Of a stretch of DNA of 64,000 nucleotides, positions 4,993 through 64,000 are shown in pieces (position 1 is the first letter of the stretch; each line of letters opens with the position of its first letter). Source of the DNA: Halopiger djelfimassiliensis (GTDB taxonomy: Archaea; Halobacteriota; Halobacteria; Halobacteriales; Natrialbaceae); NCBI RefSeq assembly GCF_000455365.1, contig NZ_HG315685.1, forward strand, positions 299,514 through 363,513, given 5' to 3'. A model generated the notes under the pieces. That model was not told the DNA's origin. It saw nothing but the letters and a program-made list of their open reading frames with translations, and ran no database searches. The position numbers and the translations under genes were made by a program.

Positions 4993-5124
4993 CGACCGTT
5001 CTTTCGAACTGACTCATATAACTCCGTGGTATTCATCGCTACTGACGCCGGCTTCCGGACCCACAGGCTGGCTCCGCGTCGTCCCTCGAGCGGGCAGGTG
5101 ACCGACGTGACTCCCGGTCGGGCG

Positions 5125-6588
5125 CTATCGCTCGAGCGGATCGAACGCCGTCGACAGGTCGTGTGGCACGTGCCCCGGCTTGTCCCCGCTCGTCGCTCGC
5201 TCGAGGAACGACCGGAGGTCGTCCCGGAAGGCGGGGTGGGCACACTCCCCGATCAGCCGCGTGGCGCGCTCGTGGGGCGCAAGCCCCCGGAGATCCGCGA
5301 CGCCGTGTTCAGTGACGACCACGTCGACGTCGTGATCGGGGTGGTCGACGTGGGTCGCTTTCGGGACGATCCGTGACACCTCGCCGTCGCGGGCGGTCGA
5401 GGGGAGGACGATCACGGAGACGAGCGCGTTCCGCGTGAAATCGCCGCTGCCGCCGATCCCCTGCAGGAGCCGCGAGCCGCGAACGTGCGAGGAGTTCGCG
5501 TTGCCGTAGATGTCGACTTCCAGCGCGCTGTTGACGCCGACGAGACCGAGTCGCCGGATCACCGACGGCTCGTTCGAGATGTCGACGGGACGGAGCCGAA
5601 CCCGGTCGGCGAACGTCTCCGGCGACCCGTACAGCCGATCGATCCCGTCCTGTGAGAGCACGATCCCCGTCCCGCTCGCGGACTCGAGCGTCCCGTCGGC
5701 GAGCAACTCGAGCAGGCCGTCCTGAATCACCTCGCCGTAGTACGCGAGATCGTAGCCCGAACGGGCGATCCAGTCCAGACGGCGCATGATCTCGTCGCCG
5801 AGCGTCCCGATGCCGACCTCGATCGTCAGTCGGTCCTCGAACGCGGGGTTGCGCTCGAGTTCGCGCTCGAGGAAGTCGACCGTTGCGGCCGCGATTTCCC
5901 CTTCGTCCGCGGTGAGCTCGCGGAACGGATACGGCATCGGCGGCTGTTCGGTTCGGATGACGGCATCCGGGCCGTCGGGGAGGGCGACGTACCGGTCGCC
6001 GAGTCGGTCACCCGGGTCGGAAAGCGGGATCGGCTCCCGCGGCGGGGTGTCGGGCCGATATACGTCGTGGAACTCGCCGACCGTTCGGGGAACGGCTTCG
6101 TTGACCTCGACGATCACTCGATCCGCGTGGTCGACGAACGCGGGGACGGCACCGATCGCCGTCGTCGGGACGAACCGGTCGTCCTCGACGGCGACGGCCT
6201 CGACGATGGCAACCGTCGGCCCGTCGAACCCGAACGCCGGCGTGAACACGTCCTGCTGTACCGTCCGGCTGATCGAAGAGAAGTGATCGTCGACGAACGA
6301 CAGGTCGCCGTCGTTGGCCGCTCGCCGGTGGTCGGGCCAGACGGCAAACGGGTACCTGAAATCGACGCCGCCGCTGTCGACGAGTTGCGTATCCGTCAGA
6401 AACCCCGCGTCGGCGCTGCTGACGATCGACAGTGATAGCTCCCGGTCAGACCGGGCGAGCGCGAGCGGGAGTTCCTTCGGTCCCGCGCCGATGCCCCCGG
6501 CGTAGACGGTTGCGTCGGCTGGAATCGTCGCCGCTGCCTCCTCGGCCGAGACGACCGGCAGACCGGCCGCGATCCGTTCGTTCGTCAT
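5125..6588 (-). CDS. acetyl-CoA hydrolase/CoA-transferase family protein
   Basis: Family I CoA-transferase fold related to acetyl-CoA hydrolase (Ach1), succinyl-CoA:acetate and 4-hydroxybutyrate CoA-transferases; it moves CoA between small carboxylates or hydrolyses the thioester. The 487 residues have the usual length. The segment ALEVDIYGN (355-363) carries the probable catalytic Glu357, followed by the glycine-rich GIGGSGDF loop (377-384) and the C-terminal TEHGVADLRG signature (426-435). The acceptor carboxylate cannot be told from sequence. An AT-rich upstream region (6610-6680) contains a TATA-like box (AATAATTG near 6614-6621), about 27 bases from the ATG. Confidence 0.88.
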   Translation of the reverse strand: MTNERIAAGLPVVSAEEAAATIPADATVYAGGIGAGPKELPLALARSDRELSLSIVSSADAGFLTDTQLVDSGGVDFRYPFAVWPDHRRAANDGDLSFVDDHFSSISRTVQQDVFTPAFGFDGPTVAIVEAVAVEDDRFVPTTAIGAVPAFVDHADRVIVEVNEAVPRTVGEFHDVYRPDTPPREPIPLSDPGDRLGDRYVALPDGPDAVIRTEQPPMPYPFRELTADEGEIAAATVDFLERELERNPAFEDRLTIEVGIGTLGDEIMRRLDWIARSGYDLAYYGEVIQDGLLELLADGTLESASGTGIVLSQDGIDRLYGSPETFADRVRLRPVDISNEPSVIRRLGLVGVNSALEVDIYGNANSSHVRGSRLLQGIGGSGDFTRNALVSVIVLPSTARDGEVSRIVPKATHVDHPDHDVDVVVTEHGVADLRGLAPHERATRLIGECAHPAFRDDLRSFLERATSGDKPGHVPHDLSTAFDPLER

Positions 6589-6690
6589 CGGGCTGACGGT
6601 TCGACACCGACCCGAATAATTGTTGTGAGAATTACATAATAATCGATAGTAAATAAGTGTATCGTTTATAATAACTACCAGCTCCCGGAG

Positions 6691-7044
6691 TCACGACCGC
6701 GGCTCCGACTCCCGCCAACTCGGGTTCTCACGGGGCGGACTGAACACGTCGACGCCACGCACCGTCCCGTCGCCGCGGTTCTCGGCGGCGTGTGGCTGAT
6801 CGCCGGGGATCGCGTAGGAGTCGCCCGGACCGCACCTGATCTCGTCGCCGTCGACCAGAAACACCAGCTCACCCTCGTAAATAAACCCTGTCTGCTCGTG
6901 TGGATGGCTGTGTTCCGCGACCGTCGCCCCGGGTTCGATCTCGAAGTGCTGGACGTTCATCGAGTCGGTGCCCGCCATCAGCGCCAGGTGAACGCCGTCG
7001 GCGGCTTCCGACGGCTCGAGGTCGGTCAGTGACACGCGGTCCAT
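6691..7044 (-). CDS. cupin domain protein
   Basis: Small single-domain cupin, 117 residues. The first cupin motif shows as PGATVAEHSHPHEQTGFIYEGE and the second as PGDSYAIPGDQPHAAEN, with metal-ligand histidines in H-x-H-x2-H and the later QPHA. Such proteins bind a metal and may be isomerases, dioxygenases or sensors, so the function is open. The start is taken at the internal ATG (7044), where homology-like sequence begins (MDRVSLTDLEP); the frame is open further upstream without protein-like character. It precedes the CoA-transferase gene on the same strand, separated by an AT-rich promoter gap. Confidence 0.82.
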   Translation of the reverse strand: MDRVSLTDLEPSEAADGVHLALMAGTDSMNVQHFEIEPGATVAEHSHPHEQTGFIYEGELVFLVDGDEIRCGPGDSYAIPGDQPHAAENRGDGTVRGVDVFSPPRENPSWRESEPRS

Positions 7045-7160
7045 ACGTCCCGAGACGCGCTGTGTGGCCAAATAATGGCAGGACGCTTTCGAATCAGCCA
7101 GTAAATCACTTCCGCCGCGCTTGCCGAACCTTGAACTGGCGGGCCGTCCCACCTCGAGCC

Positions 7161-7685
7161 ATGTACGCCGTCGTCGGCTGTAGCGAGTGTTCGAACCTCT
7201 GGATTATCGAGGGTCGATCGGAGACGTCCCAGTGTCCCCGCTGTGGCTCCCGGCGGGCCTACGAGAAACGCAAGAAGTTCGTCGAAACCGAACACGCGGA
7301 CCACGCCCGCGAGGTGCGGGCCTCGATGCTTGCAAACCGGCAGGGCGAAGGCGAGGCCTTCGCCGAGCTGGACTCCTTTGCCGACCTCGAGGACGACGTG
7401 GCCGACGGCGTCGTCGACGACGACGAGTACCTCGAGGCCGCCGGACTGGACGCCGACGAACTCGAGGCCGCCGGCGACCGCGATCCCCGCGGCCCGACCC
7501 GAAGCGGCAGCAAGCAGGAGATCGTCGAACGCGCGCTCGAGGCCATCGACCGGCCGACGGAGGACGAGGTCCTCGAGTACGCCGGCGAACGGGGCGTCGA
7601 GGCCGAGTACGTCAGGACCGCGCTCGAGAAGCTTACGCGACGCGGCGTCGTCAGCGAGAGCCGCGGCCGGTATCGGAAACTGTAA
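7161..7685 (+). CDS. zinc-ribbon/winged-helix protein (DUF5817-like)
   Basis: 174-residue acidic protein. The N terminus MYAVVGCSECSNLWIIEG...CPRCGSR has two CxxC pairs (residues 7-10 and about 27-30), a zinc ribbon, followed by a charged helical segment (AREVRASMLANRQGEGEAF). The last 60 residues (AIDRPTEDEVLEYAGERG...LEKLTRRGVVSESRGRYRKL) look like a winged helix. The architecture matches a conserved haloarchaeal family that I recall as DUF5817, of unknown function; a nucleic-acid-binding role is inferred. Start chosen at the ATG giving MYAVVG; the membrane-protein gene at 7737 follows 51 bases later. Confidence 0.78.
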   Translation: MYAVVGCSECSNLWIIEGRSETSQCPRCGSRRAYEKRKKFVETEHADHAREVRASMLANRQGEGEAFAELDSFADLEDDVADGVVDDDEYLEAAGLDADELEAAGDRDPRGPTRSGSKQEIVERALEAIDRPTEDEVLEYAGERGVEAEYVRTALEKLTRRGVVSESRGRYRKL

Positions 7686-7736
7686 CGCGCCGGCGGTAAC
7701 GGTAGCGCTTTGGGTTCGGCACGGAAACGGAAGCCA

Positions 7737-8075
7737 ATGGCAGAGACGGTCGACGTCCAGTCGATGACGATCGGTGTCGGGACGGGAACCGCGATACTCG
7801 CGCTGGTTTATGGCGCGCTCGTCGACGGGTCGGTGGTCGGCCTCGACGCGTCGACGGTCGCGGTCGGTGCGTTCGCGGTCACCTTTCTCGCGGTCGGCGT
7901 TCTCCACGGTGCATACGGACGTGGTTCCTTCGCGGTCGCGTGTGCGACCGCGGGGATCGGGCTCGGTCTCGTCGCGCTTGCCGCGAGCGGGGGCCAGGTT
8001 CTCGTCGGCTACGTCCTGTTGTTCGCGGGCGGCGGCTACGTCGCGGTCGCGACGGCTCGAGCCCGCGCGGACTGA
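7737..8075 (+). CDS. small membrane protein, unknown function
   Basis: Not recognised. The 112 residues contain about four hydrophobic segments rich in Gly/Ala/Val separated by very short loops, and end in ARARAD; it should be an integral membrane protein of the cytoplasmic membrane. The ATG at 7737 (MAETVDVQS) is preferred over an upstream GTG-type start at 7710. It follows the zinc-ribbon gene by 51 bases and converges on hmgA; a stem-loop between them is a likely shared terminator. Confidence 0.6.
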   Translation: MAETVDVQSMTIGVGTGTAILALVYGALVDGSVVGLDASTVAVGAFAVTFLAVGVLHGAYGRGSFAVACATAGIGLGLVALAASGGQVLVGYVLLFAGGGYVAVATARARAD

Positions 8076-8079
8076 TATC

Positions 8080-8126
8080 GCCGTTCGCGGGACGGCCGGC
8101 GACGCGATCGCCGACCGCGAAACGGC
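8080..8126. terminator. stem-loop between convergent genes
   Basis: GCCGTTCGCGG (8080-8090) pairs with CCGCGAAACGGC (8115-8126) with one bulged base, a stem of 11 base pairs, in the 87-base gap between the membrane-protein gene and hmgA, which converge here. A bidirectional transcription-stop or mRNA 3'-end role is inferred from position. Confidence 0.4.
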
Positions 8127-8162
8127 ACTGAAGAAAGCGCGATTGATGGTCGTCTGCCGGCG

Positions 8163-9389
8163 CTACCGCCCGAGATCCTCGTGGGCGCTCGCGAGGTGAC
8201 GCGAGGCCAGCGCGGCCAGCAGCGAAAGTTCACCGGCGAGCGCGCCGACGGCGATGATCTCGGCGAGCGCGTCGGCGTTCGACCCCGGCGGATCGCCGCC
8301 GCCCCGAAGGCCGAGCACCTCGAGCGCTTCGGCCTGCGTCGGGAGCGACGTCCCGCCGCCGACGGTGCCGACCTCGAGCGAGGCGAGCGAGACCGACGCG
8401 TAGAGGTCGGTCGTCCCGTCTTCGCGCTCGCGGGCGTCCATCGTGGTGATGGCGTTTGCGGCTTCGACGACCTGCGCTTCGTCCTGTCCCGTCGCGAGGA
8501 ACGCGGCGGCGACGACGTTTGCGGCGTGGGCGTTGAACCCGAGGCTTCCGGCCTTGGCGCTGCCGGTCAGGTTCTTGCGGGTGTTGGCCTCGGCGATGGC
8601 GTCGGCGGTCGTGTGAAGCCGCTCTTCGACGACCTCGCCGGGGATGACGACGTCGGCCGTGACCGACCGACCGCGCCCTTCGATGGCGTTGATGGCGGCG
8701 GGTTTCTTGTCCGAACAGAGGTTGCCCGACAGCGCGACCAGCGACGCGGGCGTCTCGCGTTCGACGACCTCGCAGGCCTCGCCGGTCGCGATCGTCGCCA
8801 TGTTCATCCCCATCGCGTCCTTGGTATCGTAGGCGAATCGCAGGTAGACCGAGTCCCCGACGACGTACGGCGACACCTCGAGCAGTTCGCCGTGACTCGT
8901 CGTCGATTCGGCCGCCTCGCGCAGCGCGTCGACGTTGTTCTCGACCCACTCGACCGTCCGTGCGGCCTCCGCGACGCCCTCGACACGGAACACCGGCGCG
9001 CGGGTCATCCCGTTTTTGGTGACGCGAGCGGCAGCGCCGCCGGCCGATCGGATCACCGACAGGCCCCGGTTGACCGACGCGAGCAACGCGCCTTCCGTGG
9101 TCGCGAGCGGCAGGTAGTGCTCGCCGCTCGTCGCACCCCCGTCGACGGGAACGGGGCCGACGACACCCATCGGGACCTGGGCCGCTCCGATCATGTTCTC
9201 GATGTTCGGCTCCGCCTGCTCGGCGGGGAACGCGTACTCGCCGATCGTCTCGAGGCTCGCGTCCGTCTCGCGTTCGATCAGCAGCCGGCGGGCCGTGGCC
9301 GCGGTCTCGTAGTCGGCGTGGTCCTCGAGTTCGTGCAGCCGAAGCTCTCCCTCGCGCACTCGATCGGCGAGGGTCTCGGGATCGGTCAT
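8163..9389 (-). CDS. hmgA: hydroxymethylglutaryl-CoA reductase (NADPH)
   Basis: Reduces HMG-CoA to mevalonate, the committed step toward the isoprenoid chains of archaeal lipids. The 408 residues match soluble archaeal class I reductases. Visible motifs are ENMIGAAQVPMGVVGPV (64-80), ATTEGAL with catalytic Glu99, DAMGMNM (Asp191), GTVGGGTSLPTQ near 335-346, and a C-terminal His in SRHLASAH (about 398-403). There is no membrane anchor. The 127-residue unknown gene lies upstream on the same strand with a 76-base gap. This enzyme is the target of statins, which underlies mevinolin-resistance markers in haloarchaeal genetics. Confidence 0.97.
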   Translation of the reverse strand: MTDPETLADRVREGELRLHELEDHADYETAATARRLLIERETDASLETIGEYAFPAEQAEPNIENMIGAAQVPMGVVGPVPVDGGATSGEHYLPLATTEGALLASVNRGLSVIRSAGGAAARVTKNGMTRAPVFRVEGVAEAARTVEWVENNVDALREAAESTTSHGELLEVSPYVVGDSVYLRFAYDTKDAMGMNMATIATGEACEVVERETPASLVALSGNLCSDKKPAAINAIEGRGRSVTADVVIPGEVVEERLHTTADAIAEANTRKNLTGSAKAGSLGFNAHAANVVAAAFLATGQDEAQVVEAANAITTMDAREREDGTTDLYASVSLASLEVGTVGGGTSLPTQAEALEVLGLRGGGDPPGSNADALAEIIAVGALAGELSLLAALASRHLASAHEDLGR

Positions 9390-9465
9390 GCGTCAGTCGA
9401 GACGGCGGCCGGTCCTAAGGATTGCTGATTCGTCTCGCTTCGGCGCGAACGCCGGGGGCTCGTGT

Positions 9466-9849
9466 TCAGCCGTCGACGTCGGACAGGACGCTCCTGATCG
9501 CGGTCGCGACCTCGTGAAACTCGTTCATGTTCAGCGGATCGGTCGTCACGTAGACGCCGTGATCGCCGACAATGACGCGGGTGACGTACCCCCACTCGAA
9601 GACGCGGATGGTGAACTCGTACTCGCCGAGTTCGGAGTCCCCGTACGTTTGCTGGGACGTAAACCCGAGCCGTTCGTTCGCGACGAAGCGATTGAGGTCC
9701 GCGTCGCGCTCGAGGTCCTCGCGCAGGTAGAGTTGCTCGTGATCGTCGGCCGTGAAGTACGTGATGCTCCGCAGGCCGTCGCCGATCGCGGTTCGACAGA
9801 CGCTGCTCAGTTCGTCCGCGAGGCCGTCGCTGACCGTGGACGGTGCCAT
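9466..9849 (-). CDS. conserved haloarchaeal protein, unknown function
   Basis: 127-residue soluble protein with ATG at 9849 (MAPSTVSDGLADELSS). The central part (SITYFTADDHEQLYLREDLERDADL) and the C-terminal part (VFEWGYVTRVIVGDHGVYVTTDPLN) resemble a small alpha/beta family common in haloarchaeal genomes whose function I do not know. No signal peptide, membrane segment or metal motif is seen. It precedes hmgA by 76 bases on the same strand; a shared transcript is possible but not shown. Confidence 0.62.
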   Translation of the reverse strand: MAPSTVSDGLADELSSVCRTAIGDGLRSITYFTADDHEQLYLREDLERDADLNRFVANERLGFTSQQTYGDSELGEYEFTIRVFEWGYVTRVIVGDHGVYVTTDPLNMNEFHEVATAIRSVLSDVDG

Positions 9850-9961
9850 ACGAGATCGTACAGTCGATGGACACATATATCACTCTGCCTGCGACCGCGC
9901 TCGGGCCTCGCTCGAGCGGGACGTCCTGTCGTCGCGGGTCGGCAACTCGAGTGCTGATCGA

Positions 9962-10381
9962 TCAGCGGACGACCGTTACCGGCACCGACGCGCGGCTCAT
10001 GACTCCCTCGGCGACGCTGCCGAGCAGGACGCGCGAAACGCCCGCCCGACCGTGACTGCCGAGCACGATCTGCTCGATGTCGTTTTCGGCCGCAAACGAG
10101 ACGATCGCCCGGGACGGGACGCCGACGACGGTCTCGGTCGTGACCGACGCGTCGTGTTCCGCGGCGATCCGTCGCGCCGTCTCGAGCAGCGGCTTTGCGT
10201 TTCGCTTTTCGACCTCGATCCGTCGTTCGATGTCGGCCGCCGAAACCCCGACATCGTACGTGGAGACCGACGGGCTGGCGGCGTGCAAGGCCGTGATATC
10301 GGCGTCCGGATGGGTCGTCACCGCGTACTCGAGCGCCGCCCGTGCGGGAGCCGAGTCGTCGATCGGAACGAGGACGTTCAT
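9962..10381 (-). CDS. universal stress protein (UspA family)
   Basis: 139-residue single-domain Usp. It starts MNVLVPIDDS and carries the nucleotide-binding signature G-x2-G-x9-G-S as GSHGRAGVSRVLLGS near residues 107-121, then SRASVPVTVVR at the C terminus. ATP binding is therefore expected, though the physiological role is unknown. Start set at the ATG giving MNVLVPIDD; the frame is open for 31 codons upstream without protein-like sequence. It is divergent from the broken amidohydrolase gene, with both promoters in 10382-10506. Confidence 0.9.
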   Translation of the reverse strand: MNVLVPIDDSAPARAALEYAVTTHPDADITALHAASPSVSTYDVGVSAADIERRIEVEKRNAKPLLETARRIAAEHDASVTTETVVGVPSRAIVSFAAENDIEQIVLGSHGRAGVSRVLLGSVAEGVMSRASVPVTVVR

Positions 10382-10506
10382 ACGGGCCGTTCGTACAGTG
10401 TCGCCATATACGGCCCCCTCGTTCCCACGTTCTGGAACGTTTCGGGTGCCGGCGACGTGTGCGTCCCTCCACAATCGTTTTGCACCTCGCGCGTGCGTCC
10501 TCTGCT

Positions 10507-12065
10507 ATGACCGCCGCAGCCGACCGCCTGTTGACGAACGCGGAGGTTCACACCCTCACGGATCCCGATACGACTCACGAGGCCGTCGCGATCCGCGACG
10601 GCGAAATCGTCCGGCTCGGCGACACCGACGAGGTCGCGTTCCTCGAGGGCGTCGAAACGGACGTGATCGACTGCGAAGGACGTGTCGTGCTTCCCGGGTT
10701 ATCGACGCACACACGCACGTCGAGAACCTCGGCCGCTATCTCGTCCACGCGGATCTCTCCGATGCGTCCGGCTTCGATGAGTGTCTCGAGCGACTCGCCG
10801 ACCGGGCCGCGGCGACCGACCGCGAGTGGGTGCAGGGCTTTGGCTACGACGAAAGCGAGTGGGACGACGACCGCGGCTACCTCACCCGCGCGGATCTCGA
10901 TCGCGTCAGCGAGGACCGTCCCGTGGTCGCGCTTCGGGTCGACATGCACGCCGCGTCGTTGAACTCGGTCGCGCTTTCCCGCCTCGCGGACGCCCTCCCC
11001 GACGAGGACGTTCGCCGATCGACGGCGACCGGGGAGCCGACCGGCGTCGTCGTCGAGGACGCGGCCGAGGTCGTTCGCAAACGGATCGCGCCCGGCTACG
11101 ACGAAACCCGGGAACTCGTCACCGCCGGCCTCGAGTACGCGGCTCGACAGGGGGTGACCGCCGTCCACGACATGGTTCGGAACTCGCGTGCGCCACGGGT
11201 CTATCGCGATCTCGAGGCGGAAGGCAAACTCCCGACGCGGGTACGGATCAACTACTGGGCCGATCACATCGAGAGCGTGATAGAAGTCGGCCTCACGACG
11301 AACGCGGGGAGCGACCGTATCCAGACGGGTGCGATCAAGACCTACACCGACGGCAGTATCGGGGCACGAACCGCGAAGCTCTTCGAACCGTACGAAAGCG
11401 ACGACCCCGATCCCGACGACGACGGCGAGTGGGTCGTCACCCCCGACGAACTGCGGTCGATCGTCGAGCGGGCCGACGACGCGGGCCTTCAGGTCACCGC
11501 CCACGCCATCGGCGACGCGGCGATCGAGGAGGCGCTTTCGGCGCTCGAGGTCACGGCCGATCCCGATCGCGCGCGCCACCGGATCGAACACGTCGAACTC
11601 GCGACCGACGAGCAACTCGAACGCATGGCCGAGGCCGGGATCGTCGCCTCGATGCAGCCGAACTTCCACCAGTGGGCGCGGGACGGCGGGCTCTACGACC
11701 AGCGATTGGGAACGGAGCGACGGAAGCGAACGAATCGGTTCCGGCGGGTGCTCGAGGCCGGCGTTCCGCTTGCTTTCGGCTCGGACTGTATGCCGCTGGA
11801 CCCGCTGCTGGGCGTCCACCACGCCGCCAACGCGCCCACCGAGGCCCAGCGGCTGTCGGTCACCGAGGCCCTGCGGGCCTACACTCACGGCGCGGCCTAT
11901 GCCGGCTTCGACGAGGACCGACTCGGAACCGTCGAGGTCGGCACGCGGGCGGACCTCGTCGTGCTCGAGGCCTCGCCGTGGGAACGGGCCGACCGGATCG
12001 ACGAGATCGATGTCGCGATGACGCTCGTCGACGGCGACGTCGTCTTCGACGGGCGCGAGGGGTAG
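10507..12065 (+). pseudogene. amidohydrolase (YtcJ-like), disrupted by -1 frameshift
   Basis: Metal-dependent amidohydrolase of the amidohydrolase-3/YtcJ type. The first 64 codons (MTAAADRLLTNAEVHTLTD through GRVVLPG) are in one frame; from about base 10700 the protein continues in another frame with IDAHTHVENLGRYLVHADLSDA and runs to the stop at 12063-12065. The junction reads GGG TT ATC GAC GCA CAC ACG CAC: one base is missing from the codon between Gly and Ile, right at the HxH metal motif. The repaired product would be 519 residues, a normal length, and the rest looks intact (for example QTGAIKTYTDGS and LAFGSDCMPLDPL). So either a very recent pseudogene or a one-base sequencing error. 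A TATA-like box (CGTTTTGC) is near 10476-10483. Confidence 0.85.
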
Positions 12066-12151
12066 CGTCGCTAGAGCCGGCGATCGGACCCGCTTGTACA
12101 TGTTAGCTCCAAATGCTAATTACCCAAGCAGTGTAGCGGGTTGGACCCGGA

Positions 12152-13375
12152 ATGAACCTTCGAGAGAGCCTCCGTATCGGGTGGCGGTCGATCGCGTCGC
12201 ACAAGCTTCGCTCGACGCTGACGACGCTCGGTGTCATCATCGGCGTCGCCGCCGTGATCACGTTCATGGTGCTCGGCTCCGGTTTCTCCGAGAGCATCGT
12301 CGGCGACATCGAGGCCGAACAGGACCCGGTGATGATGGTCCAGACCCAGACGGATCCGGAGGCGGGGGTCGGAATCGTTCCCGTCGACGCGCCGATCTAC
12401 ACCGAAAGCGACGTCGCGGCGCTCGAGCAACTCGACGGCGTCGCGTACGTCGCCCCCGAGGGGTCGGTCGACGTCGTCCAGACGGCAACCGACGACGAGC
12501 GGCTGACCGGCGTCGTCGACGCGTCGGCGACGACGCCCGATCGGTTCGAGCACGCGACGTTCGCCGAGGGCGAGCCCTTCGACGGGCCGAACGAGGCCGT
12601 CATCAACGAGCCGGCGAGCCAACTGTTCGAGGGGAACGTCTCGACCGGCGACGAACTTACGCTGACTTTCGAGAACGGCGAGACGACGACCGTCACCGTC
12701 GCCGGCGTCATGGAAGCGGAGTTCAGCGCACAGCCGTCACCCCGGCTTTTCCTCCCGGTCGAGCCACACTACTCGACGACGATCGAGACGCCCGCCGGGG
12801 ACGAAGAACGAGCCTATCCGCTCTTGCAGGTGGGGGCGGAGAGCTTCGACGACGTCGAGCCGGCCCAGGCGGCGGTCGCCGACTACCTCGAGACCGAGTC
12901 ACACGCGGCCGAGCTGAAACAGGACGACCACCGGATCGAGGTCCAGACCGTCGAGGACGCCATCGAGCAGTTCACCGACATCGTCGACCAGCTTACGGCG
13001 TTTATCGGAGCCGTCGCCGCCATCGCGCTCGTCGTCGGCTCGATCGGTATCGCCAACATCATGATCGTAAGCGTCACCGAGCGCATCCGGGAGATCGGCA
13101 TCATGAAAGCCGTCGGCGCGACGAGACGCGACGTCCTGCAACTGTTTCTCGTCGAATCGATCATCCTCGGACTGTTCGGGGCCGTCTTCGGGGTGGCCGT
13201 CGGACTCGGCGTCGGCTACTTCGGGGTGGCGCTGCTCGAGTGGCCGATGGTCTACCCGCTCGAGTGGATCGTGATCGCCATCGGCGTCGGCGTCGGCGTC
13301 GGCGTTGTTTCCGGGCTGTATCCGGCGTGGCGCGCCGCCCGCGTGGACCCGATCGACGCCCTCCGATACGAGTGA
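12152..13375 (+). CDS. ABC transporter permease, FtsX/MacB type
   Basis: 407-residue membrane protein of the MacB/LolC/FtsX family. One helix near residues 20-45 (TLGVIIGVAAVITFMVLGSG) is followed by a large external MacB-type domain of about 230 residues and then three C-terminal helices (from about 285), with the conserved stretch SVTERIREIGIMKAVGATRRDV and ending in RAARVDPIDALRYE. Such permeases use ATP hydrolysis to drive mechanical changes in the external domain (lipid, peptide or efflux substrates). No ATP-binding subunit lies next to it, so its partner must be elsewhere. The upstream gap contains TTAGC/GCTAA inverted repeats near 12104-12120. Confidence 0.88.
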   Translation: MNLRESLRIGWRSIASHKLRSTLTTLGVIIGVAAVITFMVLGSGFSESIVGDIEAEQDPVMMVQTQTDPEAGVGIVPVDAPIYTESDVAALEQLDGVAYVAPEGSVDVVQTATDDERLTGVVDASATTPDRFEHATFAEGEPFDGPNEAVINEPASQLFEGNVSTGDELTLTFENGETTTVTVAGVMEAEFSAQPSPRLFLPVEPHYSTTIETPAGDEERAYPLLQVGAESFDDVEPAQAAVADYLETESHAAELKQDDHRIEVQTVEDAIEQFTDIVDQLTAFIGAVAAIALVVGSIGIANIMIVSVTERIREIGIMKAVGATRRDVLQLFLVESIILGLFGAVFGVAVGLGVGYFGVALLEWPMVYPLEWIVIAIGVGVGVGVVSGLYPAWRAARVDPIDALRYE

Positions 13376-13548
13376 TACCGGGTTATCGATGCGACGCCGG
13401 CTCGCCGCTGCGTCATCGATGCACGGCGCTTCCGTCGTGAGTTTCGCTCGACGTCGCGTACGGCCGCTGGGCGCTCCGTCACCCGCGTGTGACGCGGCGA
13501 AACCGGCGACGTGATCGCAGTCGAGCGGCCGGTCGACTCGGAGCCGTC

Positions 13549-13557
13549 ACTTTTGTC
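13549..13557 (+). promoter_or_regulatory. TATA-like box of LLM gene
   Basis: CACTTTTGT lies 24-32 bases before the ATG at 13580, the position of a haloarchaeal TATA box for a leaderless transcript; inferred from spacing. Confidence 0.35.
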
Positions 13558-13579
13558 GCTGGCCGTTCATGCGGTCGGC

Positions 13580-14572
13580 ATGGACGTTGGACTCATGGTT
13601 ACGTCGCTCGGGGATCTCGACCCCGCGGACGTCGCGGTTCGCGCGGAGGAGTTAGCCTACGATGCGGTCTGGGTCGGCGAACTCTGGGGCGAAAGCGGCG
13701 TCGTCCAGCTAACCGAGATGGCGTGTCGGACCGACGGGATCGAGATCGGGAGCGCGATCCTGAACGTCTACTCCCGGTCGCCCGCGGTGCTCGCGATGAC
13801 CGCCGCGTCGCTCCACCGGGCCTCGAGCGGGCGGTTTACCCTCGGACTCGGGACGAGTACCCGGAAAGCGGTCGCGGACCTCCACGGGATGGCGTTCGAT
13901 CGGCCGGTTCGACGCGCCCACGAAACGATCGAACTGGTGCGTGCGTACACCGGCGGGACGGAGACTCCCGGCGATCCGGTCGACTACGACGGCGACGTAC
14001 TCGAGGCGGCCGATTTCCCCGCCCTCGACGCGCCGGTCCCGATCTATCAGGCCGGGCTCGGACCGGCGAACCGGCGGGTCGTCGGCCGGCTCTGTGACGG
14101 CTGGATCCCCCACAACATCCCGTTTTCGCGGCTGGCGGATGCCTTCGAGGAGGTCGCCGCCGCAGCGCGGGAGCGCGACCGTGATCCGGACGAGATCACG
14201 GTCGCTCCGTACGTCCCGGCGGCCGTCAGCGAGGAGTCGGCCGAGGCTCGCCGGACGCTCCGTCGGCACGTCGCCTACTACGTCGGCAGCGGCGAGGGCT
14301 ATCGCCGCGCGGTCGCGACGGGCTTTCCAGCGGCCACAGACCGGATCGCCGAGGCGTGGCGAAACGGCGACAAGCGGGCCGCCGCGAGCGCCGTCACCGA
14401 CGAGATGATCGCCGACCTCGGTGTCGCGGGGACGGCCGACCAAGCGCGGGACCGGCTCCGAACCCTCGTGGCCGAGACGGGGATCGATCATCCGATCGTC
14501 GTCGTCCCCGAACCGGCCTCGAGCGAGATGGTCGAGGCGACGATCGAGGCGCTCGCTCCCGTACGTGCGTAA
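13580..14572 (+). CDS. LLM class (F420-dependent type) oxidoreductase
   Basis: TIM-barrel protein of the luciferase-like monooxygenase family, 330 residues. Characteristic stretches are AEELAYDAVWVGELWGE, GSAILNVYSRSPAVLAMTAASLHRASSGRFTLGLGTST and a later YVGSGEGYRRA. In archaea such proteins commonly use coenzyme F420, as in methylenetetrahydromethanopterin reductase-like enzymes; the substrate here is unknown. The ATG at 13580 (MDVGLMVTSLG) begins the barrel; the open frame upstream has no family-like sequence. A TATA-like box lies at the right distance. It is followed by the DUF106 gene 42 bases downstream. Confidence 0.85.
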   Translation: MDVGLMVTSLGDLDPADVAVRAEELAYDAVWVGELWGESGVVQLTEMACRTDGIEIGSAILNVYSRSPAVLAMTAASLHRASSGRFTLGLGTSTRKAVADLHGMAFDRPVRRAHETIELVRAYTGGTETPGDPVDYDGDVLEAADFPALDAPVPIYQAGLGPANRRVVGRLCDGWIPHNIPFSRLADAFEEVAAAARERDRDPDEITVAPYVPAAVSEESAEARRTLRRHVAYYVGSGEGYRRAVATGFPAATDRIAEAWRNGDKRAAASAVTDEMIADLGVAGTADQARDRLRTLVAETGIDHPIVVVPEPASSEMVEATIEALAPVRA

Positions 14573-57355: not shown

Positions 57356-59287
57356 TTACCGGCCGCCGGCGTCGCTCGAGTCGGCAAGGGCCGATTCGAG
57401 CGCTGACTCGCCGCCGACGACCGGCACGCGGACGCTGCTTCGTTTGAGATCGAGGGCGATCTCGACCCGCGTCTCGGGCGGTCGCAGGAGGCTCCCCGGG
57501 TCGGTCGACAGGACGACGACGCCGATCCGGGAGCCGGCGTCGAACACCCTGTCGACGGCCTGCAGGTCGAACTCGAGGTGATACGGCCGGCCGGGCGGGT
57601 GCAGTGCGAACGTTTCGTCGAGCGATTTGCGGTTCTGGGGATCCATCCAGCCGCGGTTGATGACTTCGACGGTTCCGTCCGCCGCGTATTCGACGAGTGC
57701 GACGGTGACGTTCGCGGCCGGTTCGTCGAACGACAGGCGCAGTTCCGGGAACGCGGTCCCGCTGATCCGTACCGGCTCCGCGAGCGGGTCGGTTCGATAG
57801 ACGAGCCGGTGTGTCGACGACTCGGCACGGGCGTGGGTCGCGATGCTCGTTTGGGGGGCGTCGACGAGGCGCTCTTGGACGGGTTTGCCGCGGATACGCT
57901 CCCGCGTGAGCCCGCCCGCCGTTCGGCCGCCGGGCGTGAAGTTGAGGGTGACGTGTTCGGCCGCTGGGTCCGGCCAGTCCGCATAGCTGGCGAGTTCCTC
58001 GCTCTCGCGTTCGACGACGGCGGTCGGTTCGTCCATGACGCCGTTCTCGCGGCCGAACAGCCAGCGGGTAAACCAGCGGTTGAGCATCGCCACCCACTCC
58101 TCGGCGTGGCGATCGAAGGCGAGGAAGTCGCCGTGTCCGGCCCGGTGTATCCAGACCTTGTGCGGGACGTCGTGAGTTTCGAGGGCGTCGATCCACTTCG
58201 CGAACTGGCCGGTCTCGACGTTGTAGTCGGTGAGTCCGTGACAGACGAGCACGGCGGCCTCGACGCTCCCCGCATCGGGGAGGTAGTTTCGTTCGTGCCA
58301 CCAGTCGTTGTAGTCGCCGGTGACGCGGTCCTGCCGGTCGACGATCGTTTCCCGTGCGGGCTCACAGACCGTCCCGTTCTCCCGGCTCATGATGAAATCG
58401 AAGAGGCCGTCCATATCCAGCGCCGCGGCAACGTGGCCGTTCGCGCGGTAGTAGTCGTACCAGTTGGCGATCGCGGCTATCGGGACGATCGCTTCGAGGC
58501 CGTCGACGCCGGTCGTGGCGACACCGTTTGCCAGCGTGCCGTTGTAGGAGATCCCGATCGCGCCGGTCTTGCCGGTCGTCCAGTCGGCGTCGACCGGCTC
58601 GCCGCCCTCCCGCCTGTCGTAGGCGGTCGCCCGCCCGTTCAGCCAGTCGACGACGGTTTCGATCCCCTCGATCTCGGTGGGGCCGCCGACCGACGGACAG
58701 CCGGTCGACTGTTCGGTGCCGATCGACGCGGGGTACGCCCAGACGAACCCACACTGCAGGAGGTGTTCCTCGAACGGGCTCGGGCCGATTCGGGGAGCGT
58801 TCGCCCCCGTGAACTCCGCAAGCTCCGAGTAGTCGTCGTACACCTTCCGTGGCCGGTCCGAAACCACCTTCTCGAGGTCCCGGCCGGGTTTGTCCGGACG
58901 ATAGAGTTCGACGTCGGTCGGATGCCCCCACGCGGGCTGGTTCTCCCCGTAGTATGGGCTGGGTTCCATGACGACCGGCAGCTGGAGGTCGTCGTATTGG
59001 GTCGACGCGGGGCGGGCGATTTCGACGTGTACCCGGTCCGGATCGCCCGTCCCGTCGGTGTCGAGTTGCGTTTCGACCCAGTAGTCCTCCCGGATCACCT
59101 CGTCGTCGGCGAACACCGGCTGGGCGCGTCCCTCGTCGAACACCGGTTCGGTGACGTCGGAATCGGCCGCGACCGGCGTCGCAACGCCGGCCGCGACCGT
59201 GCTCGTTGCCGCGGCGTTTCGCAACACTCGTCGTCGGCTGACCCCGTCACCGATGGTTCGGTTCGCTCCGTGTTTGCGGTGAGCCAT
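57356..59287 (-). CDS. Tat-exported CocE/NonD (X-Pro dipeptidyl-peptidase-like) hydrolase
   Basis: 643-residue secreted serine hydrolase. A twin-arginine signal (SRRRVLRNAAATSTVAAG, RR at 18-20) is followed by an alpha/beta hydrolase domain with GISYNGTLANG (Ser247) and the histidine in HRAGHGDFLAF, then a C-terminal jelly-roll PepX_C domain (about 440-640). The family includes X-Pro dipeptidyl peptidase and cocaine esterase; extracellular peptide or ester cleavage is expected. The TATA-like GATAAG is near 59315-59322 before the ATG at 59287. It converges on the TrpD-like gene. Confidence 0.88.
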   Translation of the reverse strand: MAHRKHGANRTIGDGVSRRRVLRNAAATSTVAAGVATPVAADSDVTEPVFDEGRAQPVFADDEVIREDYWVETQLDTDGTGDPDRVHVEIARPASTQYDDLQLPVVMEPSPYYGENQPAWGHPTDVELYRPDKPGRDLEKVVSDRPRKVYDDYSELAEFTGANAPRIGPSPFEEHLLQCGFVWAYPASIGTEQSTGCPSVGGPTEIEGIETVVDWLNGRATAYDRREGGEPVDADWTTGKTGAIGISYNGTLANGVATTGVDGLEAIVPIAAIANWYDYYRANGHVAAALDMDGLFDFIMSRENGTVCEPARETIVDRQDRVTGDYNDWWHERNYLPDAGSVEAAVLVCHGLTDYNVETGQFAKWIDALETHDVPHKVWIHRAGHGDFLAFDRHAEEWVAMLNRWFTRWLFGRENGVMDEPTAVVERESEELASYADWPDPAAEHVTLNFTPGGRTAGGLTRERIRGKPVQERLVDAPQTSIATHARAESSTHRLVYRTDPLAEPVRISGTAFPELRLSFDEPAANVTVALVEYAADGTVEVINRGWMDPQNRKSLDETFALHPPGRPYHLEFDLQAVDRVFDAGSRIGVVVLSTDPGSLLRPPETRVEIALDLKRSSVRVPVVGGESALESALADSSDAGGR

Positions 59288-59825: not shown

Positions 59826-60560
59826 TTACTTCTCGCTCGGCTGGGACTCCCCGTCGTCCGTCCTACCGTCGGCTCCGTTCTCCGACGGTGCCGTGTCACG
59901 CTCACCGCCACGCCGTTTCGCGTCCGCGGTCGGTCGGCCGTCGGCGTCGTTGCCGTCGTCCGCGTCGCTTGGGGACGGCTCCTCGCTCGAGTCGTCGTCC
60001 GCGTCTCCGGACTCGGCACCGCCCGGGACGTCGCGGCTTCGCTGAACGTCGTCGAGGGAGCGGCCGAACACCGTCCGTCCGTCGCCGAACAACGATGGAT
60101 CGCCGCCGTCGCTCGAAGCGGCCTGTTCCGCGCTCTGGCGCTCGAGAAAGCCCGGTCGTTTGACGACCTCCGTGCTGTCGTCGGGCAGCGTATCGATGTC
60201 GAACCCACGAACCGCGTCGGGAATCATGTCGTCCTCGTCACGGTCCGTCTCGGGTGTTCTATCGGACGAATCCTCGTGTTCTACCAGTTCGATTTCGGTT
60301 TTTTCCTCGACCAGTTCCGTCCAGACCGCCTCGTCGTCGGCCCGCTGTCCGACCTGTCCGGCCTGATTTTGTCCCTTCTGGTAGGCGAGATTGACGAAAC
60401 TCCGATCGTAGGTCGTCGTGACCTCCTCGGCGATGCGGTCGAGTTCACCGGGATAGCGCTCCCCTAACTGGGCCGCAACCCCGAGCGCGAACGCCCGCTG
60501 GACCGCCTCCTCGCGGCTCGTAATCGCGTCCCAGTCGGTTCCGTAGGTGTCCTCGTACAT
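59826..60560 (-). CDS. acidic protein coupled to KaiC-like ATPase, unknown function
   Basis: Not recognised by name. 244 residues: the first 85 (MYEDTYGTDWDAITSREEAVQRAFALGVAAQLGE...TTYDRSFVNLAYQKGQNQA) look like a folded helical domain of a haloarchaeal family, and the rest is acidic, low-complexity and probably disordered (DADDDSSEEPSPSDADDGND). The ATG at 60560 comes two bases after the stop of the ATPase gene, so the two are translated from one message. Placement after cheA-cheC-cheD suggests a motility or signalling adaptor (inference). Confidence 0.7.
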   Translation of the reverse strand: MYEDTYGTDWDAITSREEAVQRAFALGVAAQLGERYPGELDRIAEEVTTTYDRSFVNLAYQKGQNQAGQVGQRADDEAVWTELVEEKTEIELVEHEDSSDRTPETDRDEDDMIPDAVRGFDIDTLPDDSTEVVKRPGFLERQSAEQAASSDGGDPSLFGDGRTVFGRSLDDVQRSRDVPGGAESGDADDDSSEEPSPSDADDGNDADGRPTADAKRRGGERDTAPSENGADGRTDDGESQPSEK

Positions 60561-60561
60561 C

Positions 60562-61272
60562 TCAGGTCTGGATCTTCTCGCTCGGATCGACCCGGAGTCC
60601 ACGATCGGTGAACTCGACCTTGCGGATGTCACAGTCGGTTCGGGTGCCCCGCATTTTGATGATCTGGACGCCACGGGTCATCCCGCCGGACTCGAGGTAG
60701 TTGTGCATGAACACGACGCCGTGTGCCAGATAGTGACCGTCGGAGTAGGAACTCGGATCGGTCATCTCCGAGATCAGGAGCACCGTGACGTCGGCCCGTT
60801 TGAGCTTCGTCAGGAACTTGATCAACGCGTTGAGGTCGTCCGAGAAGTAGTACTCGAGCAGCATCGTCGAGTCAATCACTAGCCGATCGACGCCCCGGGA
60901 TTCGATGAAGGCGACCAGTTGATTCGAGAGGTTCTCGACGTTCGAGGGGAACTCGCCGCTGCTTCGGGAAGACGACGAGAGCAGTCGCTGGGCCTCGCTG
61001 TCGAAGACGTTCAGCACTTTCACGTGCCCGGAACTGACCGCCTGTTCGAAGCCGAACTCGAAGTTCGCCATGTCGTTGACGAGCTCCGCTTCGGACTCGT
61101 GTAGGGTCAGAAACAGCGTCGTCTCGCCGTCGATAGCGCCTTTCGTGACGAACTGTGAACAAAACGTCGTCTTTCCGCTACCCGGCGGGCCGCTGATGAC
61201 GTACAGGCGATCTTTCAGGATCCCTCCGTCGACCAGTTGATCGAAGCCTGGTACGCCCGTGGTAATTCGCAT
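60562..61272 (-). CDS. RecA/KaiC-like single-domain ATPase
   Basis: 236-residue RAD55/KaiC-superfamily ATPase related to archaellar ArlH. Walker A GPPGSGKTT is at 28-36, FLTLHESEAELVNDM follows, and Walker B RLVIDST is near 128-134. The C-terminal part has SEMTDPSSYSDGHYLAHGVVFMHN, the usual KaiC-like pattern. Such proteins act as ATP-dependent switches or motor regulators rather than recombinases. It lies downstream of cheD with an 84-base gap that contains a TATA-like box, so it may be transcribed on its own and together with its acidic partner. Confidence 0.85.
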   Translation of the reverse strand: MRITTGVPGFDQLVDGGILKDRLYVISGPPGSGKTTFCSQFVTKGAIDGETTLFLTLHESEAELVNDMANFEFGFEQAVSSGHVKVLNVFDSEAQRLLSSSSRSSGEFPSNVENLSNQLVAFIESRGVDRLVIDSTMLLEYYFSDDLNALIKFLTKLKRADVTVLLISEMTDPSSYSDGHYLAHGVVFMHNYLESGGMTRGVQIIKMRGTRTDCDIRKVEFTDRGLRVDPSEKIQT

Positions 61273-61296
61273 TGTGGGGAATCAGGGTCGTACCGG

Positions 61297-61304
61297 ATAA
61301 ATAG
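61297..61304 (-). promoter_or_regulatory. TATA-like box of the KaiC-like gene
   Basis: GATAAATA on the plus strand (TATTTATC on the coding strand) lies 25-32 bases before the ATG at 61272, in the gap between cheD and the ATPase gene. Suggests an internal promoter. Confidence 0.45.
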
Positions 61305-61356
61305 ATTCTGGTGAAATTGTGTTTCGAAATACCGTTCGGCCGGCGGTAGCGACGGC

Positions 61357-61980
61357 TCACAGCCGCCGCTCGACGCCCTCGGCGCTGTTTATCGTCAGCG
61401 TCCCGGTCTTCGGGTCGAACGTGATCGACCGGCCGTAGTTGCCGCCGAAATCGGCCTCGGTGATCGAGACGCCGTACGCCCGGAGCTCGTGGCGAACGGC
61501 GTCGACGTTTCGTTCGCCGATGGACCGGTCGGTCTGGCGGAACTCGACCATCGTCGCGCCGCCGGCGACTTTGGCCCACGCCCGGGACGGCTCCCCGCCG
61601 AGCGCCGCAAACTCCGAGAGCATGGCTTCGATGCCCGTATCCGCGAACTTCGCGGCCGGGTGTTGGCGGCTGTTGGCCTCGGCTGCTTTCGGGAGCATGA
61701 AGTGTAACAGGCCGCTGACGCCCGCGGATTCGTCGTGGACGGCGACGCCGATACAGGACCCCAGTCCGCTGGTCCGCAAGGGGACGTGCTCGTCGGTCAG
61801 GGCGTACTCGGCGATCCCGACCGGGATCGCGTCGGGATCGGCCTCGCCGTTGGCTCGATGGACGGTCCGCGCGGCATCGTCACCGCCGGCGTCGAGCTCC
61901 GGCGAGTAGATCGGGATCTCCTCGTCCCCACCGAGCGCGGACACGTCGGCAGCGTTTCGTTCGTCCCTGTTTCCGTTCAT
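61357..61980 (-). CDS. cheD: chemoreceptor glutamine deamidase CheD
   Basis: Deamidates glutamines of methyl-accepting transducers and is regulated by CheC. The CheD fold spans about 55-207, with catalytic Cys76 in SGLGSCIGV and His93 in GLLHFMLP, then AWAKVAGGATMVEF and GERNVDAVRHELRAYGV. The first 50 residues are an acidic extension longer than in bacterial CheD. The ATG overlaps the cheC stop by one base (TGATG), so the two are translationally coupled, fitting the CheC-CheD complex. Confidence 0.95.
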   Translation of the reverse strand: MNGNRDERNAADVSALGGDEEIPIYSPELDAGGDDAARTVHRANGEADPDAIPVGIAEYALTDEHVPLRTSGLGSCIGVAVHDESAGVSGLLHFMLPKAAEANSRQHPAAKFADTGIEAMLSEFAALGGEPSRAWAKVAGGATMVEFRQTDRSIGERNVDAVRHELRAYGVSITEADFGGNYGRSITFDPKTGTLTINSAEGVERRL

Positions 61981-63176
61981 CAGTCACACCTCCGTTCGGG
62001 AAGGTCGCTCGGCCTGATGAGCGTATACACGATCCACTCGAGATCGCCGTCGGCCGCGTCGACCCGCGTTTCGAAGGAACAGACGAACCGCTCCGTCGAA
62101 CTCGCGTTGATGACGGCGTCGTTGACGATCGACGACGCCATGTCCGCGACGAACTGCGGGGCGCTCGCCTCGACCGGCGCGTCGAGGCGATCCTCGAGGC
62201 CACCAACCAGCGCTCGGCCGAGTTCCGTTGCGACGGTCCCAGTCAGGGCCTCCGCGTCGGACGACGGGGCGCGTTCGAACGCCGGCGTGGACGGCTCCGG
62301 GGTGAACGCGTTCGCTACCCGTTGCGTTGACGCCCGGTCGGTCAGTGCGAGGACGTACCCCTTCGGCGTCCCGGTCAACTCGATGACGACGCCCGCGTAC
62401 TCGTCGTCGGGAACCGTCTCCGAGAGCCGCTCCGCGGGAACGATTTCGAACGCCGAGGTCGTCGGGTCGACGGTTCCCGCGGCCATGGTTCGCGCCCGAT
62501 CGAGGAGCCTGTCGACGCCGGCATCGACGACATCCCGGAAGGGGGCGATCGGTTCGGTCTCCGGGTCGTCGGACCCGAGCAACGCCATCGTCGACGGCGC
62601 ATCGAGGAACTGGTAGAGAGACGCAACTGGTTCCCCGTCGGTTCCGTCACGAGTCGCGATCGAACTGCGCTGTGTGACGACGTAGTCGGACGCCCCGTCG
62701 CGACCGGCGGCGACGACCGACGGCGCGTCGTGTCGCCCGTCGGTAATCGGACTCGAGACGACGACCGGCGGCGACATCTCGACGGGGTCGGCCCGTTGCT
62801 CCGCCCAGCCGTCGATATACCCGCTGACCATCACGCTACAGAGTTCCGTCACGGCGTCCTCGTGTTTCGCAGTGTAGCCGTCCGCCGACGGCAACGCCGG
62901 CATGAAGGCCTCGGCCAACCGGCGTGCGTTCTCGCGGTCGAACACGAGCACGGCGTCGCCCGCGAGCGAACCCTCGAGCGAGATGCTGACCGTGACGGTG
63001 GCGTCGCTTTCGAACTCCTCGCGGAGTTCGGTCGCGGAGACGACGCCGAGCCGGGAGGCGTCGACGCCGGTTGCGATACCGGTCAAGCCGGTGAGTCGGT
63101 TGGTCGCGCTCGCCGCGCCGTCGACGGCCATCCGATCGAACGCTTCCAGTGTCTCGAGATCGACGTGGACGCCCAT
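61980..63176 (-). CDS. cheC: CheC family chemotaxis protein (two-domain)
   Basis: 398-residue CheC-type protein, twice the length of single-domain CheC. Each half opens with a helical region resembling the CheC/CheX repeat (AFDRMAVDGAASATNRLTGLTG and the later RLLDRARTMAAGTVDPTTSAF), with receptor/phosphatase-type segments AVLVFDRENARRLAEAFM, AVTELCSVMVSGYID and TELGRALVGGLEDRL. CheC dephosphorylates CheY-P and controls CheD. ATG at 63176 is used; GTG at 63188 overlaps the cheA stop by four bases (GTGA) and is a strong alternative. It is part of the cheA-cheC-cheD operon. Confidence 0.88.
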   Translation of the reverse strand: MGVHVDLETLEAFDRMAVDGAASATNRLTGLTGIATGVDASRLGVVSATELREEFESDATVTVSISLEGSLAGDAVLVFDRENARRLAEAFMPALPSADGYTAKHEDAVTELCSVMVSGYIDGWAEQRADPVEMSPPVVVSSPITDGRHDAPSVVAAGRDGASDYVVTQRSSIATRDGTDGEPVASLYQFLDAPSTMALLGSDDPETEPIAPFRDVVDAGVDRLLDRARTMAAGTVDPTTSAFEIVPAERLSETVPDDEYAGVVIELTGTPKGYVLALTDRASTQRVANAFTPEPSTPAFERAPSSDAEALTGTVATELGRALVGGLEDRLDAPVEASAPQFVADMASSIVNDAVINASSTERFVCSFETRVDAADGDLEWIVYTLIRPSDLPERRCD

Positions 63177-63184
63177 GGATTCGC

Positions 63185-64000
63185 TCACAGTGTATCGACG
63201 TCGAGGATCATGACGACCTCCCCTTCGCCTAGCACCGAGGCACCGCTGATCCCGGGCGCACCGCTCAGGACGCCTTCGAAGGGTTTGATCACGACCTCTT
63301 CCTGACCGACGACGTCGGAACATCGGAGACAGACCTGTCTGACGCTGTCTTTGATCCGAACGACCATGTCGTCGGTGGTGTGCTCCGCGTCCGGTACGTC
63401 GAGCCGATCGCCAAGCGACAGAAGCGGATAGACGCGATTGTCGTGGGTGATCGTCGACTGTCCCTCGACCGATTCGACGGTGACATCTTCGAACTCGGAG
63501 ATTTCGTCGATGTTCTTGATCGGGACGCCGTAGGTCTCGTCCCCGACGGTGACAAACAGGACACGAACGATGGCGACGCTGACCGGCAGCATCAGCGTGA
63601 TGCTGGTCCCCTCGTCGGGTTCGCTCTCGACGTTGATCGAGCCGTCCACGCCGCGGACGACCTGATTGACGACGTCCATCCCGACGCCACGACCGCTTAC
63701 CTCGGTCACCTCGTCGGTGGTCGAAAAGCCGGGGTGGAAGATCAGGTCGTACACTTCCGAGTCGTCGAGGAGTTTGACCTCGTCCTCGCCCATGATCCCC
63801 TGTTCGACCGCTTTGTTCCGGATCTTTTCGACGTCGAGGCCGCCACCGTCGTCCTCGACGGTCACGGAGACGCGATCCCGGTCGCGTTCGCCGACGAGCC
63901 TGATCGTCCCTTCGCGGGGTTTGCCCTTCCGTTCGCGCTCCTCGGGCGATTCGATCCCGTGGTCGACGGCGTTGCGGATGAGATGCATCAGCGGATCGCT
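63185..64000 (-). CDS. cheA: chemotaxis histidine kinase CheA, C-terminal part
   Basis: Partial: the gene runs past the right edge of the window, so the Hpt and dimerisation domains are not seen. Visible are the ATP-binding domain (MHLIRNAVDHGIESPEER, VEDDGGGLD, GRGVGMDVVNQVVRG, GTSITLMLPVSVA) and the CheW-like regulatory domain (VGDETYGVPIKNIDEI...YPLLSLGDRLDVPD...GASVLGEGEVVMILDVDTL). CheA phosphorylates CheY and CheB in response to transducers. Its stop overlaps the possible GTG start of cheC. The window edge cuts it upstream of residue SDPLMHL. Confidence 0.96.
   Translation of the reverse strand, partial: SDPLMHLIRNAVDHGIESPEERERKGKPREGTIRLVGERDRDRVSVTVEDDGGGLDVEKIRNKAVEQGIMGEDEVKLLDDSEVYDLIFHPGFSTTDEVTEVSGRGVGMDVVNQVVRGVDGSINVESEPDEGTSITLMLPVSVAIVRVLFVTVGDETYGVPIKNIDEISEFEDVTVESVEGQSTITHDNRVYPLLSLGDRLDVPDAEHTTDDMVVRIKDSVRQVCLRCSDVVGQEEVVIKPFEGVLSGAPGISGASVLGEGEVVMILDVDTL

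Follow-up and report, generated by a model that had tools for sequence, protein, structure and literature searches.

The window, a stretch of 64,000 nucleotides from Halopiger djelfimassiliensis, carries on its minus strand a gene for a single-domain KaiC ATPase, followed by a gene for a partner protein of a new family (Table 1). The stop codon of the ATPase (TGA, 60564-60562) and the start codon of the partner (ATG, 60560-60558) are separated by 1 nt. Upstream of the pair, on the same strand, are cheD, cheC and cheA (3' end of cheA at 63185), with a spacing of 84 bp between cheD and the ATPase gene. Hence, the first-pass annotation was accurate in placing both reading frames after cheA-cheC-cheD, with the second starting on the second base after the stop of the first. 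The window forms the edge of a larger che/arl island on contig C2. The first part of this island contains cheB, a ParA-like gene, a transducer gene, cheW, cheR, cheY and a second cheC, and it continues with arl genes including arlI and the true arlH, archaellins, cheF and a HEAT-repeat gene. The ParA-like gene (G000:C2:366169-366987), which is located just outside the window between cheB and the transducer gene, recurs in che clusters of Natrialbaceae. Downstream of the pair, positions 57356-59287 (minus strand) encode a large putative secreted hydrolase with a twin-arginine-like signal, of which no counterpart was seen adjoining the pair in most other loci.

Table 1. Coordinates of the ATPase-partner pair, its sequence features and its upstream neighbours in the window.
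Feature	Position	Strand	Basis
CirD-type single-domain KaiC ATPase, 236 aa	60562..61272	-	PF06745; own clade; cirD primer match to Haloferax ortholog
Walker A GPPGSGKT, ATPase residues 28-35	61168..61191	-	invariant in ortholog alignment
His58-Glu59, replacing the KaiC catalytic Glu-Glu	61096..61101	-	HE in 78/78 readable orthologs
CirD partner protein (new family), 244 aa	59826..60560	-	no Pfam/NCBIfam/PDB family; 213/392 genomes
Partner helical N-terminal domain, residues 1-86	60303..60560	-	AlphaFold2 on 66 sequences
Partner motif P-x-[FLM]-L-x-[RK] (RPGFLER, residues 135-141)	60138..60158	-	P136 and L139 invariant in 66 sequences
Partner acidic low-complexity tail	59826..60137	-	alignment; only in Natrialbaceae-type forms, absent from short forms
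Probable promoter region of the pair; TATA-like TATTTA at -31..-26 (61298-61303) from the ATPase ATG	61273..61356	-	
cheD, neighbour outside the module	61357..61980	-	PF03975, E 2.6e-30
cheC/CheX-type phosphatase, neighbour outside the module	61980..63176	-	PF13690 and NCBIfam CheC matches

The ATPase has a KaiC fold, with a score of 145.8 bits against Pfam PF06745 (gathering cut-off 26.6), and its best matches among solved structures were KaiC proteins. A tree built from haloarchaeal KaiC proteins grouped the window ATPase and its orthologs into one clade (support 100/99), apart from the CirA clade (99/100), the ArlH clade (100/100), which sits on a very long branch, and other KaiC proteins. 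The ortholog profile gave scores above 315 bits for orthologs and of about 100 bits or less for paralogs. Against the ArlH model NCBIfam NF052589 the ATPase scored only 28.4 bits, far under the curated cut-off of 215, and against the clock KaiC model TIGR02655 it scored 59.6 bits (cut-off 546), having one KaiC domain where two are required. Judged from these scores and the tree, ArlH is no closer a relative of the ATPase than other KaiC proteins are. The kinship with ArlH that was originally noticed therefore holds at the level of the KaiC superfamily only, and the same genome has a true arlH at a distance of about 15 kb. A second motor ATPase, replacing or backing up ArlH at the archaellum base, would fit the shared superfamily and the weak matches to ArlH/FlaH models (28-40 bits). 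However, such a role is extremely improbable in view of the 28 versus 215 bits, the ArlH branch of 3.85 changes per site, the presence of a genuine arlH within the genome's own arl cluster and the better match to KaiC than to ArlH. Paralogy to ArlH was rejected on the basis of profile score and tree. Two other candidates were also rejected: CirA, considered since it sits in the Haloferax archaellum cluster, has 25% identity to the ATPase and a separate clade, and OE4643R of Halobacterium is a DUF151 protein (PMC3579733).

A His-Glu dyad was found in 78 of the 78 distinct orthologs with a readable motif, and it aligns to the Glu-Glu of solved KaiC CI domains. The K-x-R-G interface motif was likewise kept in 78/78 orthologs. 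The ATPase thus resembles the CI domain of cyanobacterial KaiC in fold, Walker A and K-x-R-G. In contrast to cyanobacterial KaiC, it has one domain instead of two and His-Glu instead of Glu-Glu, and there is no evidence for a clock function. The altered dyad suggests slow or gated ATP hydrolysis, and thereby a switching rather than a motor function. The AlphaFold model of the ATPase, obtained from 18 sequences, is too low in confidence (pLDDT 66) to lend anything to the idea of a ring with an adaptor.

Primers for quantitative PCR of four KaiC genes of Haloferax volcanii have been published (PMC3941300), and we searched for them in a genome of Haloferax type that carries both cirA primers exactly. 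The cirD primers matched the ortholog of the window ATPase (L120) with 1/1 mismatches, in convergent orientation and about 250 bp apart. The other primer pairs matched three other KaiC paralogs, with 0/0 mismatches for cirA (L167), 0/1 for cirB (L166) and 1/0 for cirC (L176). Because each primer pair finds its own KaiC gene, and the cirD pair does so within the clade of the window ATPase, we conclude from the sequences that the ATPase is orthologous to CirD of Haloferax volcanii (Maniscalco et al. 2014, PMC3941300; Nussbaum et al. 2026, PMC13286277). The published size of CirD (29.7 kDa) exceeds that of the 234-aa Haloferax product; the open frame comprises 263 aa, and another start codon may explain the difference. 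The arrangement in Haloferax also agrees, with an oxidoreductase-like and a hypothetical gene next to cirD. The Haloferax locus differs in that the pair is located away from the che/arl genes and in that its partner is a shorter protein that lacks the long acidic tail.

AlphaFold2 predicted the N terminus of the partner as a confident helical domain (pLDDT 93-97 over residues 1-80), in agreement with the conserved helical N terminus proposed earlier. Helices were placed at residues 2-6, 16-31, 39-46, 50-71 and 76-86, followed by a low-confidence tail. The alignment of 66 sequences contained seven invariant columns (Y2, R22, G27, G63, P114, P136 and L139). The long acidic tail is present in the window and has a low-confidence fold, but it turned out to be specific to Natrialbaceae: partners outside this family are about 130-155 aa long, and in these short forms P-x-[FLM]-L-x-[RK] stands at the very C terminus. 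None of the 66 aligned sequences matched NCBIfam, and only two isolated single-member matches to Pfam were obtained. A search of the partner profile against PDB sequences gave no hit, and a Foldseek search of the AlphaFold model found no similar fold in the PDB (best E 1.9). In the literature, we found neither a study of the partner nor a published interaction between ATPase and partner; the gene flanking Haloferax cirD is mentioned merely as a hypothetical protein. The protein HVO_1902 drops together with CirD in proteomics (PMC12240190) and is a candidate for the Haloferax partner, although no source ties the locus tags together.

We surveyed 392 haloarchaeal genomes at class level. The ATPase was found in 212 and the partner in 213 of these genomes, and the two sets differ by a single genome (G183). 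The pair is conserved over 41 haloarchaeal genera, which is far beyond chance. The gap between ATPase and partner ranged from -4 to +6 bases in 48 GTDB loci, and the two genes adjoined in 38 further pair-holding loci with one exception (G317), where only one of the two ATPase copies (L134, L147) was found to have the partner next to it. Two cirD copies were observed in G062, G105, G241 and G317. In G183, a genome without CheB or ArlH, ATPase fragments lie beside a partner remnant (L146, G183:C26:83001-103000, ~9889-11470), possibly as decay after loss of motility.

Most of the Natrialbaceae examined have the pair beside che genes, as do Halorubrum and several genera allied to it. The position of the pair there is not uniform: the neighbour is cheD in Natrialbaceae, and cheW, opposite cheB, in Halorubrum and its allies. 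In Haloferax, Haloarculaceae and f2 (Halobacteriaceae-type) genomes, as well as in some loci of Natrialbaceae (L024, L025, L152, L154), we found no che/arl gene at a distance of up to about 10 kb from the pair. Conservation of the pair together with che genes, as expected in the first-pass annotation, thus applies to the former groups but not generally; the pair commonly occurs away from che and arl genes, an outcome that the annotation itself had named as counting against its proposal, and physical coupling to che is not a rule. In two loci, L026 (a Haloplanus MAG; 286-2592) and L128 (G280; 8098-10414), csmR, cirA, cirD and the partner gene are contiguous. Here, csmR and cirA are arranged head-on, followed by cirD and the partner gene, with cirD divergent from cirA and a cheW-like gene next to them. 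Published motility regulators are thus clustered together in these two loci.

The 86 upstream regions of the ATPase gene showed a peak in A+T content of 94-98% at positions -28..-26 from the start codon. An A+T block at that spacing is expected for leaderless haloarchaeal mRNA. This conserved block makes it probable that the pair is transcribed from a promoter of its own, also where it lies behind cheD, and the pair would therefore not need to belong to the che operon. We also scanned the promoters for the published CsmR motif, the palindrome TATCA(N4)TGATA, with at most two mismatches. It was present in 52 of the 59 promoters outside Natrialbaceae versus about 1% in shuffled sequences; many of the 59 come from close Halorubrum relatives, which makes the effective number smaller, and the site also occurs in genera of Haloarculaceae. 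Nearly all of these sites lie at -57..-59, ahead of the TATA box (e.g., in L028, in L121, and in L120 at 9701). The same scan gave 0/29 in the loci of Natrialbaceae and f10. In the che/arl region of Haloferax, it returned perfect sites at promoters of archaellins and of cheY and at a third place.

The distribution of the pair was strongly associated with motility genes. CirD was present in 210 of the 272 genomes with both CheB and ArlH, in none of the 42 genomes with CheB only, in one of the 24 with ArlH only, and in one of the 54 with neither. Accordingly, 210 of the 212 ATPase genomes have both markers. The single ArlH-only genome with CirD (G234) has CheF and cheA, so the assembly may lack its CheB; the single CirD genome without CheB and ArlH is G352. 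Plain Fisher tests gave p-values of 5e-28 (CheB) and 5e-39 (ArlH). Because relatedness inflates these values, we stratified by genus in a Cochran-Mantel-Haenszel test, which gave p = 4.5e-12. Outside genus g14, 18 of the 19 pair-negative members of pair-positive genera lacked CheB or ArlH; some of these genomes are incomplete MAGs, and about half are 93-99% complete.

Ten Natrialbaceae with CheB and ArlH but without the pair were tested for CheF, which was absent in nine (G028, G043, G046, G116, G191, G203, G238, G270, G371) and present in one (G020). A che cluster that has no connection with the archaellum is found in many Natrialbaceae. These results imply that the pair tracks archaellum-coupled chemotaxis rather than chemotaxis alone. 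The relation is one-way: the pair implies archaellum-coupled chemotaxis but not the converse, as several lineages have CheF and ArlH without the pair (G018, G020, G021, G024, G066, G124, G129). A second che cluster was also observed in the genome of the window (L160, G000:C3:646000-665999, ~4461-13995); it contains cheR, cheD, two cheC-like genes, cheA, cheB, cheY and cheW, and neither CheF nor archaellum genes lie close to it. Two CheB matches were seen in CirD-positive Natrialbaceae, and one in most CirD-negative members of the family.

The co-occurrence with motility might be a phylogenetic coincidence, with the pair serving a general response to light or density that merely affects motility. 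Such a response would account for the cirD transcript being about 10-fold higher in the dark (PMC3941300) and for the reaction of CirD to conditioned medium, which is partly independent of DdfA (PMC12240190). However, we consider a coincidence improbable, because the association holds within genera, nearly all pair-negative genomes counted outside g14 lacked CheB or ArlH, and G183, without CheB and ArlH, keeps only a decayed ATPase.

Physiological work on Haloferax bears on what the pair does. Deletion of cirD yields non-motile cells without archaella (PMC13286277), in support of the claimed link to the archaellum. In disc-inducing medium, which turns motile rods into discs, the log2 fold change of CirD was below -3, together with ArlA1, ArlG, CheY and CheW1 (PMC12240190). 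A motility requirement has been shown for Haloferax only, where the pair lies away from che, and the phenotype in Natrialbaceae could differ.

The earlier proposal was a switching or signalling adaptor that connects Che proteins (CheC, CheD, CheF) to the archaellum motor and acts on rotation or reversal. It agrees with the position of the pair beside cheD in Natrialbaceae, or beside cheW and opposite cheB in Halorubrum and allies, with its near confinement to genomes with Che and archaellum, and with the absence of CheF in nine of the ten pair-negative Natrialbaceae. However, what the cirD deletion mutant shows is a complete lack of archaella and not a switching defect (PMC13286277), which makes a direct role in switching less likely and points to a biogenesis or licensing step upstream of reversal control. 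Moreover, the pair is away from che/arl in many genera, and lineages with CheF but without the pair exist. We therefore regard a switch adaptor as unlikely.

Alternatively, CirD and its partner could form a regulatory node that modulates transcription factors (CsmR and others), in which case the loss of archaella would be secondary, as proposed for CirA. The genetic link of cirD with csmR keeps this alternative alive: cirD is upregulated when csmR is deleted, and cells lacking both csmR and cirD become slightly motile again (PMC13286277). This partial recovery also indicates that CirD is not an absolute structural requirement. The CsmR-like operator in 52 of the 59 promoters outside Natrialbaceae and the immediate vicinity of csmR and cirA in L026 and L128 point in the same direction. 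In contrast, the cirD deletion barely affects the CsmR target genes, which include archaellum and chemotaxis genes, and the CirD-regulated genes are absent from the shared motility core (PMC13286277). Furthermore, the promoter in Natrialbaceae is without the operator, and no CirA-type KaiC was found among the KaiC matches of the window's genome. A regulatory node is hence possible, and it is the rival to which we give most weight, but we doubt that it is the correct explanation.

We favour the interpretation that the pair is one bicistronic motility unit, in which the CirD ortholog is required for archaellum formation and is accompanied by a dedicated partner; on balance, this is probably correct. 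Our best reading is that the pair is an autonomous module by which haloarchaea capable of taxis license the biogenesis of archaella, and not a switch from Che to the motor. By analogy with KaiC, CirD would form an ATP-dependent ring, for which the K-x-R-G interface motif is kept. The helical N-terminal domain of the partner may dock on this ring and read its nucleotide state, and the flexible tail with P-x-[FLM]-L-x-[RK] would bind a client belonging to the machinery of the archaellum or of Che. The complex would then act after transcription, as an assembly licence for the archaellum. The pair itself would be under control of the motility programme, as suggested by the CsmR-like operator and by the >8-fold lower level of CirD protein in non-motile discs. 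In a more specific and rather speculative version, which we consider unlikely, CirD and its partner provide an ATP-gated licence that physically couples the chemosensory machinery to that of the archaellum while assembly takes place, e.g., at the cell pole. If true, haloarchaea would build archaella only when these can be steered, and the partner would be an undescribed core protein of motility and taxis in about half of the haloarchaea.

The pair is real, conserved and mostly overlooked. CirD itself is known, and the obligate partner, the invariant His-Glu dyad and the phyletic linkage appear to be new; a 2017 review of archaeal KaiC neighbourhoods may mention the pair. Since Haloferax was recently found to need CirD for its archaella, the partner, the co-loss and the altered dyad offer concrete handles on how CirD acts.

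Two other haloarchaeal KaiC proteins serve motility as well. Haloferax volcanii CirA is likewise a single-domain KaiC motility regulator, and its gene is head-to-head with a CirD-type gene in L026 and L128. Beyond its low identity and separate clade, it differs in keeping Glu-Glu and in its location in the archaellum cluster, and its deletion leads to hypermotility, opposite to the phenotype of the cirD deletion. ArlH shares the KaiC/RecA superfamily and a function in the archaellum, but it belongs to a separate clade, with arlH elsewhere in the same genome. ArlH, CirA and CirD thus represent separate lineages of KaiC, all three of which serve a single motility programme, and hence a KaiC-like gene near che or arl genes should not be taken as ArlH.
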